Shown here one piece after another: positions 1,095-7,439 of a DNA stretch of 11,518 nt. Under the pieces are notes generated by a model. It searched no databases, was not told the origin of the DNA, and saw only the letters and a program-made list of their open reading frames with translations. Both the position numbers and the translations under genes were made by a program. Location: assembly GCA_030591745.1 (NCBI GenBank), contig JAUVAM010000039.1, positions 1 to 11,518 of the forward strand. Reading direction: 5' to 3'. The first letter of the stretch is position 1. Each line of letters begins with the position of its first letter. Origin of the DNA: Deltaproteobacteria bacterium. GTDB lineage: Bacteria > Myxococcota > B64-G9.

Positions 1095-3158
1095 TCAGTA
1101 GCCCAGGCTGTAATTGTGGTGGCTGCTGCCCCCCGGCCCGACCACGCTGATGTGCACCCAGAAACTCGGGGCCAGATTGGTCCAGTGAAAGGGAATCCAG
1201 ACCTCTTGCAAGCGGTCGGGCTGATCGGCGTGATTGGCGCCGTAGTTGGGATCCACCGACCCTGAGCTCATCGGCACGGGCAGGTCCTGGACTTGCCAGG
1301 CACTATCGTAATAGGTGAGATTCACTTGATCCGAGCAGATGTGATAGCCGCGCAGGACGATGCCCGGCTCGCCACTCACGTCCCATCGAAAGGCCTGGGT
1401 GATGAGGGGACGCTGCCAATCGGCCTCGATCTGCTCGACCAAAAGCTCACCGAGACCGCCGTCACAAACAAAGTTTTCCCATTTGTAGCTGATCAGCTTC
1501 TCGGCGAAATTGCCGTTAAACATGATGGCCTTGTCCATGCGTTCCTTGGTCGTTTGCTTGAGGTCCGGATAGCAAGGTCCCAGGCCGGGATCGAAACTTT
1601 CCACGTTCGCCCAGAGCAAGACCCCGTTGCCCAATTCGTCCAGGGCTTCGCGGGCCGCCCGGTAGTAATCCGTGGTCGTGGCGTAGTATCCGCCGGCATC
1701 CTCGAATGGCCAGAACAACTTGGACTTGGCGGTGCCCACCCCGTCCTGTGGCGCGATGATATCGACGTTTCTTTGCGCCAGGGTCTTGATGCCCTGCTTG
1801 GCGACAGCCACCGAGCTGCCACCTGAAATGGTGGCCACCCAGTATGGAGAGATCATGATCTGCTTGCCCGGCAAGATGGATCGCATCTGCGCATGCTGAT
1901 CGCTGTACCAACTGAGCACACTGTTGGGCGTGTTGCCGATCATCGCCTCCATGCCCTGATAGACACCCTGCCAGGACGTCATGCCCGCATAGCGCTCAGC
2001 ATAATCGGTCAGTATTCTTTTCGACAACTCCAAAGAAGTGGCCCTGGCATAGGCGGACACGTTCCAGGTTTGGTTCGGCTCGACCGCCGGGGCCGGCAGT
2101 CCGAGAAAAACCTGCATGCCCATGATATGAGCCTGCTCCTGCAAGAGCCTGACCGAATCGTTGCTCTGACGGCCCTGGATGAGCACCAAATCGTAGGCCA
2201 TGCCCTGCCCAAAGTCGCAACTGCGATCCGCCGGGTTGTCGTGGCGAAGAAGAATCGAGAGATAGAGCTGCCCACCCACCTCGATGCGCTTGTCCATGAC
2301 GGGACAAGTCAGCAAGGAAGAACCAAAATTTTCGTAGGTCGTGTATTCGTAAACGGTCTCGATCAGATTGCCGGCGTGGACGGCTTGCAGGTCACCCAAG
2401 GCAGCCTGATAGCAGCTTTTCCCGTCCCTCTGGCAGTCGGGCATGGATGAGGCATCGCCCCATGCCAATCGGGGGCCAAACTGAATGACCGTATCGCCGC
2501 CCAACCTGTGCATGCGCGTGAGTTTTCGTCGCCAGTCACAAGCATCCGGGGCCCCAAAAGCCCAAAAGCCCGACAAGACATAAGGGTAAGGCACGCTGAT
2601 ATCCGGAGCACCGCAAGGATCCGAGGCGAGGCAGACACCCGACAAACACGCCATCTGATCGCCGCAGGCCGTGCCGTCAGGCGCATCGGCGTGGGCACAA
2701 CCGTCGACCGGATCGCAGGCATCCTGAGTGCACAGATCCTGATCATCGCAGTCCAAAGGATCCCCGGCAAAACACTGGGCGTCCAGGCATGTCTCGACTC
2801 CGTTGCAAAGGTCACCATCATCGCAGTCGTCATCCCCCTGACAGACGAGACAGTATCCCTCCTGGCAGCCCCCCTCACAAATCTCTTCTTCGGTCGAGTA
2901 GCGACATTCACCATCGTCACAGATGCCCTGATCGGCATAACGAAGCAAGCGACTCGAATCCAGACATTCGTCAGGCGGCGGCGAATCGCAGACAAGCCCG
3001 AAGCAGGGGTCCACTGGCTCCTCGCAACGGCCCGATACGCAAACCCGATCCCCCGTGCAATCGTCATCCGTCTTGCAAACATCTTCACCACATGCAACCA
3101 AACTCAGTACCGACCAAACACCAGCCAGACACAGAAGGCCCCAGTTCACTCGCTTCAC
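1095..3158 (-). CDS. Secreted lipoprotein: Cys-rich stalk plus DUF4434-like (glycosidase-type) domain
   Basis: The 687-residue protein starts at GTG (3156-3158), with GGAGG six bases upstream. Residues 1-22 form a lipoprotein signal peptide: basic start, hydrophobic core, lipobox 'LVAC' with Cys23. The residue after the Cys is Gly, not the inner-membrane retention Asp, so outer-membrane or surface anchoring is plausible. Residues about 25-185 are Cys- and Asp-rich with repeated patterns such as 'CKTDDDCTGDRVC' and 'CDDGDLCNGVETC', as in many myxobacterial surface proteins. Residues about 187-560 resemble DUF4434, a TIM-barrel family related to glycoside hydrolases. Visible are 'GMQVFLGL', 'QIMISPYW', the hallmark-like 'IIAPQDGVG' and 'LLWANVESFDPG'. 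Candidate catalytic acids are the Glu of 'QGMEAM' and of 'WANVESF'. The C-terminal ~110 residues look like an appended beta-rich domain. The substrate is unknown. Family assignment is from motif memory, not a search. Confidence 0.72.
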   Translation of the reverse strand: MKRVNWGLLCLAGVWSVLSLVACGEDVCKTDDDCTGDRVCVSGRCEEPVDPCFGLVCDSPPPDECLDSSRLLRYADQGICDDGECRYSTEEEICEGGCQEGYCLVCQGDDDCDDGDLCNGVETCLDAQCFAGDPLDCDDQDLCTQDACDPVDGCAHADAPDGTACGDQMACLSGVCLASDPCGAPDISVPYPYVLSGFWAFGAPDACDWRRKLTRMHRLGGDTVIQFGPRLAWGDASSMPDCQRDGKSCYQAALGDLQAVHAGNLIETVYEYTTYENFGSSLLTCPVMDKRIEVGGQLYLSILLRHDNPADRSCDFGQGMAYDLVLIQGRQSNDSVRLLQEQAHIMGMQVFLGLPAPAVEPNQTWNVSAYARATSLELSKRILTDYAERYAGMTSWQGVYQGMEAMIGNTPNSVLSWYSDQHAQMRSILPGKQIMISPYWVATISGGSSVAVAKQGIKTLAQRNVDIIAPQDGVGTAKSKLFWPFEDAGGYYATTTDYYRAAREALDELGNGVLLWANVESFDPGLGPCYPDLKQTTKERMDKAIMFNGNFAEKLISYKWENFVCDGGLGELLVEQIEADWQRPLITQAFRWDVSGEPGIVLRGYHICSDQVNLTYYDSAWQVQDLPVPMSSGSVDPNYGANHADQPDRLQEVWIPFHWTNLAPSFWVHISVVGPGGSSHHNYSLGY

Positions 3159-3354
3159 AATAAACCTCCAAGAAAAAGTAAAAGCATCATTCCTGCCTCT
3201 TTGCCTTAGTGCTTGACGTCAACCTTGTATATAGGCTTTGATGAATAACTCATAATGAGAAGTGTATCGCCTAGCAAGGGGGGGCCATGCACAGACGAAG
3301 GCAGCAATACTCGATTTCTCCGTGGGCCCATTTTCATTCAGGGAGGCCCGAGCC
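3159..3354. promoter_or_regulatory. Divergent intergenic region between lipoprotein gene and sigma-54 activator
   Basis: This 196-base gap must carry the promoters of both divergent genes. It is more AT-rich than its surroundings around 3225-3256. A perfect 10-base palindrome, TTGACGTCAA, lies at 3213-3222 and could be an operator. For the activator gene a -10-like CATAAT is at 3251-3256 but has no convincing -35. For the lipoprotein gene TATATA at 3228-3233 is a weak -10 candidate. A G7 run is at 3278-3284. I cannot assign either promoter firmly. Confidence 0.35.
3341..3346 (+). promoter_or_regulatory. Ribosome binding site fixing the activator start at 3355
   Basis: GGGAGG lies eight bases before the ATG at 3355. 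The frame stays open to an earlier candidate start near 3262, but that start lacks a good site and would add 31 residues unrelated to a receiver domain. The 3355 start places the first receiver beta-strand (TVMLLD) right at the N-terminus, as is normal for the family. Confidence 0.75.
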
Positions 3355-4716
3355 ATGACCCGTCCGACCGTGATGCTCTTGGACGGAGACAAGGCCTTCT
3401 GTCGACGAGCCAGGACACGACTCACCAGGCGCGGCTATCGAGTGCTTTGCGCCCATAATGGACTGGACGGCCTGAGCCAATGCGCCTGTCATCGGGTGGA
3501 CGTGGTCATCTTGGGCATGGACCTGCCTGGAACCTCAGTCGAAAAACTCTGTCCCTCCCTGCTCAAATGTGAAGCCAGCATCCAAATCCTGGTTCTAAGC
3601 GATGGCGATCATTTGGAACGAGCAGCCAAGGCCCTCAGGGCCGGAGCCCAGCATCACATGATGCGCCCGGATAATCTGGACGAACTTGAGGAAGTCATCG
3701 GCCGGGCACTCCGCGCAACCCAGTTGGAACAAATGACCCATCTGGAGTCCTACCGTGCCGATCAGCTGAAACAACAAGCCACCCTGGTGGGCGACAGCCC
3801 CATGCTTCAGGACGTGAGACGCGTGGTGGACCTGGCCGCCTCGGTGAACGCCTCGGTGCTCATCACCGGAGAGACGGGCACTGGCAAAAACGTGGTCGCC
3901 AACGCCATCCACCACCGCAGCCGAAACAACAACACCCCCTTCGTCAGCATCAACTGCGCGGCCCTGCCGGAAAACCTCATCGAGGCCGAACTCTTCGGCT
4001 ACGAGAAGGGGGCCTTTACCGGTGCGGTAGCAGCCAAACGCGGCATCTTCGAGATGGCTCAGGGCGGCACTCTGTTCCTTGACGAAATCGGAGAGATGCC
4101 TCGCCACTTGCAAGGCAAGCTCTTAAGCGCCATTGACGAAAAACAAATCAAGCGCCTGGGCGGAGAAAGTTCCTTTCCTGTGCGGGTACGCATCATCGCC
4201 GCCACTTGCCTTGATCTGGAAACAATCGACGACCATCGCTTTCGACGAGACCTCTACTTCCGCCTCAGCGTCATCCGGGTTCATCTCCCACCGCTTCGGC
4301 AAAGAAGAGAGGATATTCCGGCCCTCTGCGAGCACCTACTGGGCGGTTTGGTCAGCGGTCGACAAGTGAAATTGAGCCAAGATGAGCTGACCCGGGTCAA
4401 GGCCTACCACTGGCCAGGCAACGTGCGAGAATTGCGCAACATCCTGGAACGGGCCGCCATCATCCAACCCGACCAACAATTCAAGCCCTCCCAACTCCTC
4501 TTGCCCGCCTTTGCCGACAACCCGCCAGGTTCACTCTCGAATTCGGTCGAGGATCTCTTGCCCCTCAAGGAAATTGAAAAGCAGCACATCGCCAAAGTGT
4601 TGACCGCCTACCGACACAACTTGTCACAGTCCGCGCGCAGCTTGGGCATCTCCCTCTCCACGCTCAAACGAAAGATCAAATCCTACGGCATTCCGCGAAA
4701 ACCCGGCTCAAAATGA
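3355..4716 (+). CDS. NtrC-family sigma-54 activator with degenerate (pseudo)receiver domain
   Basis: The 453-residue protein has the order receiver (about 1-120), AAA+ ATPase (about 143-385) and Fis-type HTH (about 405-450). The central domain is intact: Walker A GETGTGKN (172-179), GAFTGA loop that contacts sigma-54 (219-224), Walker B 'GGTLFLDEIGEM' with Asp243-Glu244, and the sensor II region 'WPGNVRELRN'. The HTH reads 'SQSARSLGISLSTLKRKI'. The receiver is abnormal. In 'DVVILGMDLPG' the phospho-acceptor Asp is replaced by Gly54 (codon GGC at 3514-3516). The conserved Lys is Arg104 ('MMRPDNLDEL'), and one of the two metal-binding acids is Gly11 ('LLDGD'). Ser82 keeps the Thr/Ser switch position. 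Phosphorylation by a His kinase is therefore unlikely; control by protein contact, ligand or expression level is inferred. A sigma-54 promoter with dyad sites follows directly, so the next operon is its probable target. The sigma-54 activator call is near certain; the specific role is unknown. Confidence 0.93.
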   Translation: MTRPTVMLLDGDKAFCRRARTRLTRRGYRVLCAHNGLDGLSQCACHRVDVVILGMDLPGTSVEKLCPSLLKCEASIQILVLSDGDHLERAAKALRAGAQHHMMRPDNLDELEEVIGRALRATQLEQMTHLESYRADQLKQQATLVGDSPMLQDVRRVVDLAASVNASVLITGETGTGKNVVANAIHHRSRNNNTPFVSINCAALPENLIEAELFGYEKGAFTGAVAAKRGIFEMAQGGTLFLDEIGEMPRHLQGKLLSAIDEKQIKRLGGESSFPVRVRIIAATCLDLETIDDHRFRRDLYFRLSVIRVHLPPLRQRREDIPALCEHLLGGLVSGRQVKLSQDELTRVKAYHWPGNVRELRNILERAAIIQPDQQFKPSQLLLPAFADNPPGSLSNSVEDLLPLKEIEKQHIAKVLTAYRHNLSQSARSLGISLSTLKRKIKSYGIPRKPGSK

Positions 4717-4730
4717 CCCGCTCAAAATGA
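4702..4730 (+). repeat. Near-perfect tandem repeat spanning the activator stop codon
   Basis: CCCGGCTCAAAATGA (4702-4716) is followed at once by CCCGCTCAAAATGA (4717-4730), which differs only by loss of one G. The first copy holds the TGA stop of the activator gene. Each copy carries a (G/C)GCTCAAA half-site, and a third GGCTCAAA occurs at 4736-4743. The arrangement suggests duplicated binding half-sites. Confidence 0.8.
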
Positions 4731-4741
4731 GCCATGGCTCA
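4720..4741. promoter_or_regulatory. Overlapping dyads: candidate upstream activator sites (UAS)
   Basis: Two perfect inverted repeats overlap here: GCTCA-AAA-TGAGC (4720-4732) and the 14-base palindrome TGAGCCATGGCTCA (4728-4741). The second is centred about 86 bases upstream of the start site predicted from the downstream sigma-54 promoter, within the usual range for enhancer-binding proteins. With the half-sites at 4705 and 4719 this makes a cluster of GGCTCA-like elements. The sigma-54 activator encoded just upstream is the natural candidate to bind. Dyads are seen; the binding protein is inferred. The dyads lack a T tail, so a terminator is unlikely. Confidence 0.6.
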
Positions 4742-4793: not shown

Positions 4794-4809
4794 TGGCATG
4801 CCCCTTGCT
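4794..4809 (+). promoter_or_regulatory. Sigma-54 (-24/-12) promoter of the acetyltransferase-receiver-GGDEF operon
   Basis: TGGCATG-CCCC-TTGCT matches the sigma-54 consensus (TGGCAYR, four bases, TTGCW). The invariant GG (4795-4796) and GC (4807-4808) are exactly ten bases apart. Transcription is predicted to start near 4820, giving a leader of about 42 bases before the ATG at 4862. Its position between a sigma-54 activator gene and a same-strand operon, with dyads upstream, makes chance occurrence unlikely. I noticed no comparable match in the other intergenic gaps. Confidence 0.82.
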
Positions 4810-4861: not shown

Positions 4862-5923
4862 ATGACGCGCAGCAAAGTTCGATCAATCCAATGGCCACCC
4901 ACAGGGCTCACTTCTGAAATACTGAGGCTCCTTGTGCTGGATCCGCACACCCGAGAGCACGCAGCCGCCCTTGGGATCACCCAGGAAGACATGGCCGCAT
5001 GCCGCTACTTTGGGCTCAGTTCGCCCTCCAGCGGCCTGTTTGTGGCCGACGATGGGCACCGTCTCGTGGGCCTGTTGCAGATGGAACCCGATCTTTGGGC
5101 CTCGGCCTTGTTCGGGGTTCACGTATGGCGAATACGCAATATGGCCATCGACGCATATGCGCCACCGAGTTGTGTTGAGGCTCTGCTGGAACACGCGGTC
5201 ACCAGCATCGTCGCGCCGGTCGATTGCATCACAGCACCGACCCCCAGCCAGGCCCACGCTATTTTACAGGGGCTGGTCCAGGTCGGGTTTAGAACCGTCG
5301 GCACCCAGATTCAAACCGTGGCCCGCATCGAACCCATGCCCGCTTCCGACATCCGCATGGTGCCCCTAGACACCCACCATCTCCAAGAGCAGCCCAATTG
5401 GCTCTTGGACTGCTCAGACCTCAGCGGATTCGCTTGCGATCCCGGCTTCTCAAGCAATGGACTGCGAGCCCTCCAACGCAGGCGCCTCTTTGACAGTCTT
5501 GATGATCCCGAGTCCTGGGTCTTCGTCGCCGAGGACGGGAATGGCAAGGCCTTGGGCCTGATCGGCTTCCGCACCAACCGCCAGACCGCCCAGTTCTCTG
5601 ATGCTCGCCTGGCTCTTCAGCACATTTGCGGCCTCCAGGTCGCCCACGCCGACGCGGGTATCGGCGATGACCTTCACCAGGGCTTGATGACGCAACTTCA
5701 CCGCCAAAAAGTTAATGCCATCACCGTGCGCATCACCATGACCGGTCACGGTGCCACCCGAGCCCTGGCGCAACACTTGCGTCAAGGCTACCGCATGACC
5801 CGAAGCGACCAGGTATTGCATCTCTGGTTGAGCCGCCCCCTGCCCAAAATCTCCAAACTCGATTTTCAAAATCCGCTAAGAGACCACAGTCAACCTCACT
5901 ATGCTTGCAGGAGCGCACTATGA
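4862..5923 (+). CDS. Tandem GNAT-like N-acetyltransferase (WecD-like C-terminal half)
   Basis: The 353-residue protein appears to contain two GNAT-like halves. The first (about 10-155) has the strand pattern 'SGLFVADDGHRLVGLLQMEP' followed by a paired strand and helix, with no clear acetyl-CoA loop. The second (about 160-345) has 'ESWVFVAEDGNGKALGLIGF', then 'LQHICGLQVAHADAGIGDDL' and a C-terminal 'ATRALAQHLRQGYRMTRSDQ'. This resembles dTDP-fucosamine acetyltransferase-type GNATs (WecD/RffC style). The 'HADAGIGDDL' segment sits where the acetyl-CoA pyrophosphate loop (Q/R-x-x-G-x-G/A) is expected and fits it only partly, so activity is uncertain. It is first in a three-gene operon; its TGA overlaps the next ATG (ATGA at 5920-5923). 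Transcription from the sigma-54 promoter is expected. The substrate could be an amino sugar, an amino acid or a protein lysine. A non-enzymatic sensor role is equally possible. Confidence 0.55.
   Translation: MTRSKVRSIQWPPTGLTSEILRLLVLDPHTREHAAALGITQEDMAACRYFGLSSPSSGLFVADDGHRLVGLLQMEPDLWASALFGVHVWRIRNMAIDAYAPPSCVEALLEHAVTSIVAPVDCITAPTPSQAHAILQGLVQVGFRTVGTQIQTVARIEPMPASDIRMVPLDTHHLQEQPNWLLDCSDLSGFACDPGFSSNGLRALQRRRLFDSLDDPESWVFVAEDGNGKALGLIGFRTNRQTAQFSDARLALQHICGLQVAHADAGIGDDLHQGLMTQLHRQKVNAITVRITMTGHGATRALAQHLRQGYRMTRSDQVLHLWLSRPLPKISKLDFQNPLRDHSQPHYACRSAL
5909..5913 (+). promoter_or_regulatory. Ribosome binding site for the second operon gene
   Basis: AGGAG lies six bases before the ATG at 5920, inside the end of the upstream coding region. 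Together with the ATGA overlap it favours 5920 over a TTG at 5905 or an internal ATG at 6076, and it points to translational coupling. Confidence 0.7.
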
Positions 5924-6513
5924 TCAAAACAAGCAGAGGCCCGAAAAGCCCGAAGGTACCCTTGGGGGAAATCGACTGTTTTCGTCGCCCTGCCTGCGGA
6001 CAGCCCATCCATCGCCGACTGCAAACCATGGACCCCTTCGGCTTGCATCAGCGTCGAAAACGCCGCCCCCCCACGATGAACAACGCGCGGGTCTTGCTGG
6101 CGGCCACCGACATAAGCCTGCGGGCAGCGCTCTCCAAGGAATTCCGCGTGGACGGCTGCAAAGTACACGAACTCCAGGACGGTCTCTCTCTCATCGCCTG
6201 GCTCGGAGACGCGCTCCTCGAAGATCGTGAGCTGCTGCTGCCCGATCTGATCGTCACCGAAGCGGAGTTGCCCGGCTGCACCGGCATCCACATCCTGAGA
6301 GATTTACGCAATGCGGGATGGCGCACACCCTTCGTGCTGCTCGGGCGCCCCTCCTCCGCCGAGCATCTCCGAGAAATCCTGGAGATGGGGATGGCCGTAT
6401 TGTTCGAACCGCCATTCGACAATGACGATCTGCTCACGGCAGCCTATTTTCTGCTGGACCGGATGATGTGCTTCTATCCCGGCCCCACAACGAAGCCCGA
6501 GCCAAGTGCATGA
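5920..6513 (+). CDS. Stand-alone degenerate receiver protein with Glu at the phospho-acceptor site
   Basis: The 197-residue protein has a basic, Pro-containing N-terminal extension of about 53 residues without recognised domain, then one receiver-like domain (about 55-183) and no output domain. The core alignment is clear: 'RVLLAATDISLRAAL' for beta1, 'LPDLIVTEAELPG' for beta3 and 'MAVLFEPPFDNDDL' for beta5. Every key residue is changed. The acidic pair is Ala62-Thr63, the phospho-acceptor Asp is Glu114, the Thr/Ser switch is Gly142 and the conserved Lys is Glu163. Glu at the acceptor site often mimics the phosphorylated state, so a permanently 'on' adaptor is a reasonable inference. Without the acidic pair, classical Mg2+-dependent phosphorylation is improbable. 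It is coupled on both sides by ATGA overlaps, which suggests fixed stoichiometry or physical association with the GGDEF protein. The N-terminal extension is real only if the 5920 start is used; 6076 is the alternative. Confidence 0.75.
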   Translation: MIKTSRGPKSPKVPLGEIDCFRRPACGQPIHRRLQTMDPFGLHQRRKRRPPTMNNARVLLAATDISLRAALSKEFRVDGCKVHELQDGLSLIAWLGDALLEDRELLLPDLIVTEAELPGCTGIHILRDLRNAGWRTPFVLLGRPSSAEHLREILEMGMAVLFEPPFDNDDLLTAAYFLLDRMMCFYPGPTTKPEPSA

Positions 6514-7439
6514 GCGCAGAAACCCAATTCGATTTGCTTCCAGTGCCCAGCATTATTTTCGATTCCAGGGGACTCTTGCGCCACGCCAACCTGGCCTGGC
6601 GCCGTCTTGGCGGTCGAGGCAGCCGTGATGCCATCGGCCTGCCGGCCGCCTCACTGCTGGAACCCACCTGCGGCCTCCCGGCCGGTGTTTGGCTTGCGGA
6701 TTGGCCCAAGGCACAACACACGCCACGCTGGGCATATTGTCGGGGTACCCACCCACGCCTTTGCTTGGCCTTCATGAGCAGCCGCATCGAGGCAGGCCTA
6801 TTGCTTCAGGGCGTTGATGTGAGCCCAGCGGTAAAACGGATACGCCAACTCAGCGAACTCAGCCTCACCGATCCCCTGACGGGACTCCTGAACCGCCGTG
6901 GTTTGCGCATCCGCCACAGCTCTTTGCTGAATCTCGCAAAACGCAAAGGCTGGCCCCTCATCGTCCTGGCCATCGATCTGGACAACTTGAAAATGATCAA
7001 CGACATGTATGGTCATCGCATGGGTGATCGGGCACTGGAAGAGACAGCCACCGCCTTGCGCACGGTCTTGCCCAACGAGGCTGTTGTTGCCCGAATGGGA
7101 GGCGATGAATTCACGGCCCTGTTGGTCCATCCAGGTGGCCAAGAGACAGGCGAAGCCGTGCTCAGAGATCTGCGCCGACATTTGGCCGGCTCATCAGTTT
7201 CCGCGACCACCTGGCAGCTCAGCGTCAGCGGTGGCATCCGCGTCTTGCCGGTGAACGAAGACCTTCACCTGGCCAGCTTGCTGCAGGCCGCCGACCAAGA
7301 CATGTACCGGGACAAATCAGACAAACAAAGAAGACCAGAATCCAAGCCCTACCAGCCCAAACCCAACCAACCCAAACTCAATCAACCCAAACTCAATCAA
7401 CACTTCATGGCACAGCAAAAAAATCGTGATCGATGTTGA
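6510..7439 (+). CDS. PAS-GGDEF diguanylate cyclase
   Basis: The 309-residue protein makes c-di-GMP from two GTP, judging by an intact GGDEF domain (about 115-272). Visible are 'LTDPLTGLLNRRG', the metal-binding Asp and GTP-binding residues in 'AIDLDNLKMINDMYGHRMGD', the active-site loop 'ARMGGDEF' (GGDEF 197-201) and the closing 'AADQDMYRDK'. Residues 1-105 look like a PAS-type sensor ('LPVPSIIFDSRGLLRHANLA'). No membrane segment is seen, so it is cytoplasmic. The primary inhibitory I-site RxxD is absent: 'PNEA' (188-191) occupies its place, so product feedback through it is not expected. The C-terminus is a low-complexity Gln/Pro/Lys/Asn tail with 15-base repeats. The ATG at 6510 overlaps the previous TGA (6511-6513) and has only a weak ribosome site, implying coupling. 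The last 35 bases overlap the convergent GNAT gene. A GTG at 6468 is a less likely start. Confidence 0.9.
   Translation: MSAETQFDLLPVPSIIFDSRGLLRHANLAWRRLGGRGSRDAIGLPAASLLEPTCGLPAGVWLADWPKAQHTPRWAYCRGTHPRLCLAFMSSRIEAGLLLQGVDVSPAVKRIRQLSELSLTDPLTGLLNRRGLRIRHSSLLNLAKRKGWPLIVLAIDLDNLKMINDMYGHRMGDRALEETATALRTVLPNEAVVARMGGDEFTALLVHPGGQETGEAVLRDLRRHLAGSSVSATTWQLSVSGGIRVLPVNEDLHLASLLQAADQDMYRDKSDKQRRPESKPYQPKPNQPKLNQPKLNQHFMAQQKNRDRC
7353..7397 (+). repeat. Three 15-base tandem repeats in the GGDEF gene tail
   Basis: CAACCCAAACTCAAT occurs twice in identical form (7368-7382, 7383-7397). A degenerate copy, CAGCCCAAACCCAAC, precedes it (7353-7367). The units encode QPKPN, QPKLN and QPKLN. The unit length is a multiple of three, so copy-number change would keep the frame. 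Confidence 0.85.

Follow-up and report, generated by a model that had tools for sequence, protein, structure and literature searches.

Sigma-54 activator genes beside the operons that they control are already established. EBP genes of Desulfovibrionales frequently sit beside their sigma-54 targets (PMC4641369). In the available part of that regulome study, Desulfovibrio vulgaris offers the closest layout to the one described here, with an EBP gene adjoining its target operon, a conserved -24/-12 element, predicted upstream sites and local control. In one case out of ten among co-localised one-component EBPs, that of DVU0569, the promoter lies downstream of the EBP gene, as it does for the activator studied here (PMC4641369). 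The window analysed (the whole stretch of DNA, 11,518 nucleotides) differs in what lies behind the promoter, as the main text of the regulome study, so far as it is available, does not contain the words diguanylate, GGDEF or acetyltransferase. FleQ, as described in the accessible portion of PMC10723142, resembles the window's activator in its order of receiver, AAA+ and DNA-binding domains, in a receiver incapable of phosphorylation and in its link to c-di-GMP, but the residues with which it contacts c-di-GMP (R185, E330 and R334) are not kept. In Escherichia coli, yeaJ and yhjK are cyclase genes behind predicted sigma-54 promoters and are similar in that respect, whereas the account of them, in the part at hand, names no adjacent dedicated activator, tandem-GNAT or receiver gene (PMC3162934). 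A search of the literature, as far as the sources were available, found no description of this gene set, which is weak evidence of absence. What appears to be new is the gene set itself, i.e. tandem-GNAT, receiver and cyclase behind a bEBP, together with an activator receiver that lacks its acceptor Asp.

The features of the locus (Table 1) probably form a local sigma-54 circuit, in which the bEBP drives the neighbouring tandem-GNAT, receiver and cyclase operon through the element at 4794-4809. In a deltaproteobacterial lineage that is uncultured, this would be a clean and testable local circuit, probably leading to c-di-GMP synthesis.

Table 1. Features of the sigma-54 module in the window, with the basis of each assignment.
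Feature	Position	Strand	Basis and counterparts
bEBP, sigma-54 activator, 453 aa: degenerate receiver, AAA+ with GAFTGA, Fis-type HTH	3355..4716	+	Pfam, alignment
Imperfect dyad copy GGCTCAAAATGACCC, overlapping the activator stop codon	4705..4719	+	Also in L001
Perfect 5-3-5 dyad GCTCAAAATGAGC, proposed enhancer (UAS) for the activator	4720..4732	.	Counterpart GTTCATTTTGAAC in G005, L041:6145-6157
Perfect palindrome TGAGCCATGGCTCA, overlapping second enhancer candidate	4728..4741	.	In L001, absent from L041
Predicted sigma-54 promoter, -24/-12 (TGGCATG-N4-TTGCT); predicted start ~4820	4794..4809	+	Exact motif, gap shuffles; counterparts L001:9933, L041:6235
Tandem-GNAT-fold protein, 353 aa	4862..5923	+	Model with GNAT matches over both halves; relatives
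Stand-alone degenerate receiver	5920..6513	+	Acceptor Asp to Glu, acid pair lost, Lys to Pro
Predicted diguanylate cyclase, GGDEF motif intact	6510..7439	+	Pfam GGDEF 1.9e-34, alignment

The -24/-12 element reads TGGCATGCCCCTTGCT and has the GG-N10-GC spacing of a sigma-54 promoter. The initial annotation had given both the motif and its exact spacing correctly, and its distances also hold, i.e. 77 bases after the activator (stop codon at 4714-4716) and 52 bases before the operon ATG, which is preceded by AAGGGGGG. Exact matches to TGGCAN6TTGCW number one in the window, this one. Allowing one mismatch gives three matches vs 2.31 expected, so the motif carries weight only through its context. 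Within that context, the 145-base gap between activator and operon, TGGCAN6TTGC arose in 0.07% (about 7e-4) of 20,000 dinucleotide shuffles.

Relatives of the locus differ in the weight that they carry. The closest genome found, Deltaproteobacteria MAG AB_03_Bin_195 (G001), has a syntenic locus (L001) with a GNAT protein 94% identical to the window's and a motif, TGGCACGCCCCTTGCT, nearer the consensus; as G001 is a near relative, this conservation is weak evidence. A distant relative, G005, keeps the order of activator, tandem-GNAT, receiver and GGDEF cyclase on contig C599 (L041) at identities of 55%, 25%, 43% and 31%, respectively, with TGGCACGACCTTTGCT between the activator and GNAT genes. 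The initial annotation had proposed looking in relatives for the four-gene order together with the -24/-12 motif; both are kept in G005. Its reading of a sigma-54 promoter is thereby supported alongside the gap shuffles, and the conserved gene order speaks for its linkage of activator and target. The receiver-less activator of G005 has a parallel in D. vulgaris DVUA0024/DVUA0025, with an EBP that likewise lacks its receiver; there, according to the part of the study available, the missing receiver is encoded directly upstream (PMC4641369), whereas the stand-alone receiver of G005 instead matches the receiver of the window operon (45%).

Among the genomes searched, the complete four-gene module turned up in G001, of the window lineage, and in G005, and in no others. 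Searches with GNAT alignments matched 6 of 193 and 6 of 195 genomes, largely the same ones; one of the six, G150, matched over only ~100 residues and was left out of the family. A second protein search by alignment, scoring the 7998 candidates that shared most words, returned three proteins, one of them new, and missed the previously found P0003. The plasmid records searched for the GNAT protein gave no match, and no relative was confirmed on viral contigs. With the alignment of the stand-alone receiver as query, and up to 20 candidates scored in each genome, matches at E<=1e-12 came from 72 of 193 genomes. The scores of G001 (5.9e-86) and G005 (2.4e-76) were followed next by 2.7e-26, and the remaining matches, far below those two, were taken as ordinary receivers. 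The second G001 hit of this search lies behind a different activator (contig C11, L076:4765-6934), on the same strand, and is a stand-alone receiver (34-35% identical to the window's); the fetched 16.5 kb there contain no sigma-54 motif.

The upstream dyads of the initial annotation were recovered as GCTCAAAATGAGC and TGAGCCATGGCTCA. The former stands just 3' of the activator stop codon and is followed by CAT; GTTCATTTTGAAC in L041 lies shortly 3' of the activator stop and is followed by CAT as well. From dyad centre to the GG of the promoter there are 69 bases in the window vs 85 in L041. Shuffling the L041 gap produced a perfect 5-3-5 dyad of whatever sequence in 12.7% of cases, YTCAWWWTGAR in 0.48% and GYTCAWWWTGARC in 0.01% (1e-4), the pattern having been chosen after seeing the window. 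Since any such dyad is common in shuffles, what carries the argument is how alike the two dyads are. In their HTH recognition stretches, the window and L041 activators share 16 of 19 residues. A related activator in a third genome, G008, has a similar HTH (13/19), but no such dyad was found at its locus. Copies of YTCAWWWTGAR vs control number 25 vs 13 in G001, 41 vs 13 in G005 and 2 vs 2 in G008; this short form exceeds its control in the first two and may have other uses there. Of the 25 places in G001, only this locus is near any of the 73 listed sigma-54 sites, at 73 bases, with the next-nearest pair on a shared contig 1365 bases apart. With the dyad near only one of the 73 sites, the circuit looks local. 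A candidate autoregulation site, CTCATAATGAG at 3249, was dropped, as L001 does not keep it, and a sigma-70-like promoter for the activator was looked for and not found.

Pfam matches of the activator, scanned from a longer start at 3262, are Response_reg, Sigma54_activat (1.6e-64) and HTH_8; ATG 3355, with GGGAGG in front, is a more likely start than GTG 3262. The Walker A and B motifs (GETGTGKN and FLDEIG) and the GAFTGA loop of the AAA+ domain, present in both the window and L001, together with the Fis-type HTH, identify it as a bEBP. Aligned with PmrA and others, its receiver has Gly in place of the acceptor Asp and Arg in place of the conserved Lys, the two residues expected of a phosphorylation-controlled NtrC-type bEBP. 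The G005 activator (L041:5066-6127), adjoined by promoter and dyad, has no receiver domain at all. With the phospho-acceptor lost in one and the receiver in the other, phosphorylation is unlikely as input, and judging by these residues the activator probably responds to something else. The loop of the G005 activator reads GAFTHA. In NorR, according to the part of the study available, substitution of that Gly gives a non-functional protein except with D, N, Q, S, C or M (PMC2941729), and the GAFTHA loop counts against the local circuit. The G008 activator, 51% identical, keeps Asp and Lys and lies directly behind a 657-aa frame that is sensor-kinase-like by eye. Related activators thus occur with an intact receiver (G008), a dead one (window lineage) and none (G005), which raises the question of how such activators are controlled after phosphorylation is lost. 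At the places aligned with FleQ R185, E330 and R334 (numbering anchored on Walker A K180) the window's activator has Asn, His and Gly, i.e. it lacks the residues of FleQ-type c-di-GMP binding; R144 falls outside the aligned stretch.

For the protein of the first operon gene, Pfam gives nothing above cut-off (the best match being GNAT, E=0.047). Its structure model, of low confidence (pLDDT 58.9), matches tandem GNAT structures over both halves, and by this model each half has a GNAT fold. A start at ATG 5920 is possible for the receiver gene and would overlap the stop codon of the GNAT gene (ATGA), and the cyclase start overlaps the receiver stop likewise (ATGA); the gene junctions in L041 differ. 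The naming of the second gene as a pseudo-receiver in the initial annotation agrees with the residue changes in Table 1, and its L041 counterpart keeps Asp and not Lys. The annotation of the third gene as a diguanylate cyclase is likewise upheld at the level of sequence by an intact RMGGDEF, found in the window, L001 and L041 proteins. A weak PAS match precedes it (PAS_4, E=0.0024, below cut-off). Ahead of GGDEF, the window and L001 have PNEA and L041 has RGSD. The RxxD pattern at this place is presumably the I-site of product-inhibited diguanylate cyclases, so that the window and L001 proteins lack it.

The sigma-54 DNA-binding domain (Sigma54_DBD) was found in all five relatives checked; the sigma-54 domain itself matched in 4 of 14 named control genomes. 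TGGCAN6TTGCW occurs at 73 sites in G001, vs 5 for the reversed control pattern, and at 145 in G005, vs 9. Judged from these relatives, the organism is predicted to have sigma-54 and to use the motif widely. Activator-domain matches range from 43 to 53 per relative (five relatives; up to 43 in G001), figures that are upper bounds because the control search matched 14 of 14 named genomes. Thirty of the 73 G001 sites were read in context, ~1.5 kb on each side and with the module's own site left out. Two of the 30 have an activator gene directly upstream on the same strand, so this layout is not the rule in G001.

With the window and L001 counted as one, the tandem-GNAT gene occurs at six independent loci (seven sequences). 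Exact TGGCAN6TTGC is upstream of four of the six (five of the seven sequences), with a shuffle chance of 0.06-0.12% each. L042 has a variant, TGGCACGGCTTATGCT, seen by eye ahead of its presumed operon, and L043 has no TGGCAN6TTGC. Four of the six independent loci have a bEBP gene no more than 4 kb away, a limit set post hoc (chance ~2.4e-4 at 0.065 per locus). Contig ends truncate part of both loci that lack one, L040 and L043, and the L040 contig yielded no bEBP relative. Within the fetched stretches of L039, L040, L042 and L043, blastp detected no cyclase relative; the first three of these loci combine the tandem-GNAT gene with a sigma-54 motif or a nearby activator. Tandem-GNAT loci of this kind imply that the system may have something other than c-di-GMP at its core. 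Activator and sigma-54 seem to be tied more lastingly to the tandem-GNAT gene, and the c-di-GMP part was found in two lineages. The tandem-GNAT protein of G007 (L042:8433-9572) has an N-terminal cysteine motif, CWCGSGKKYERCH, in which we presume a likeness to the SEC-C zinc motif. In G008, tandem-GNAT, ferritin-like and kinase-like frames and the intact-receiver activator run in one direction behind a sigma-54 motif (L039:7722-12877), possibly a self-activating operon; the ferritin and kinase labels were given by eye.

The promoter, the dyads, the gene order, its recurrence in a distant relative and the intact AAA+ and GGDEF motifs are all read from the sequence; from them we infer binding, activation and c-di-GMP output by the circuit. 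The bEBP would bind the dyads at 4705-4741, ~70 bases before the -24 element, form a ring, contact the RNA polymerase-sigma-54 held at 4794-4809 and open the promoter at the expense of ATP. Products of the tandem-GNAT, receiver and cyclase genes would then be made together and c-di-GMP would rise. The self-contained module that the initial annotation proposed, with local c-di-GMP synthesis turned on by the activator, is partly supported: promoter, linkage, dyad and cyclase motif fit it, and the activation step is hypothetical. Weighing against the circuit, besides the GAFTHA loop, are the unequal dyad-to-promoter distances, the G008 locus with its similar HTH and no dyad, the motif's absence from L043 and variant form in L042, and the limitation of the complete module to G001 and G005 among the genomes searched. 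As the activator's receiver has no phospho-acceptor, the switch would most likely be set by the level of activator or by a partner protein and not by a kinase. The partner could, as a conjecture, be the stand-alone receiver or the GNAT protein. In an extended and improbable form of the kinase-free switch, two operon products, the dead receiver and the tandem-GNAT protein, the latter acting through acetylation or by sensing acyl-CoA, would set bEBP activity and make c-di-GMP synthesis self-reinforcing. The bEBP's receiver, dead in the window lineage and gone in G005, would on this reading be in decay.

Other readings of the locus were weighed against the local circuit. The promoter could be a true sigma-54 promoter that answers to some other bEBP among the many in the genome, with the neighbouring activator acting mainly elsewhere. 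The number of activator-domain matches and consensus sites in G001 leaves room for this, as do the sigma-54 motifs without a dyad at L039 and L040, the latter with no bEBP relative found on its contig. Such an arrangement is unlikely, given that L041 retains activator, dyad and promoter side by side despite diverged proteins and that none of the other listed sigma-54 sites in G001 has the dyad close by. Transcription of the GNAT, receiver and cyclase genes could also come mainly by read-through from the activator gene, leaving the -24/-12 motif minor or idle. Activator and operon share a strand, and no terminator-like site was found on the + strand of the gap between them, but the motif recurs with correct spacing and orientation in a distant relative, and read-through as the main source is quite improbable.

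A FleQ-like closed loop, in which the activator binds, and is controlled by, the c-di-GMP that the cyclase makes, is very improbable. It would fit the FleQ receiver, which is also phosphorylation-incompetent according to the accessible text of PMC10723142, and Myxococcus xanthus Nla24, given as a c-di-GMP-binding enhancer binding protein in the available part of PMC8844925. The replacement of all three FleQ contact residues in the window's activator speaks against it, as far as a FleQ-type binding mode is concerned.

Two further observations lie outside the module. Upstream of the activator gene, on the minus strand (window 1095-3158), a large protein is encoded whose N-terminal part is rich in Cys and which has a DUF4434 domain (Pfam 1.4e-16). 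Among the 30 G001 sigma-54 sites read in context (L002-L031), approximately seven precede frames with lipoprotein-like signal sequences, as judged by eye, hinting at a cell-envelope sigma-54 regulon.
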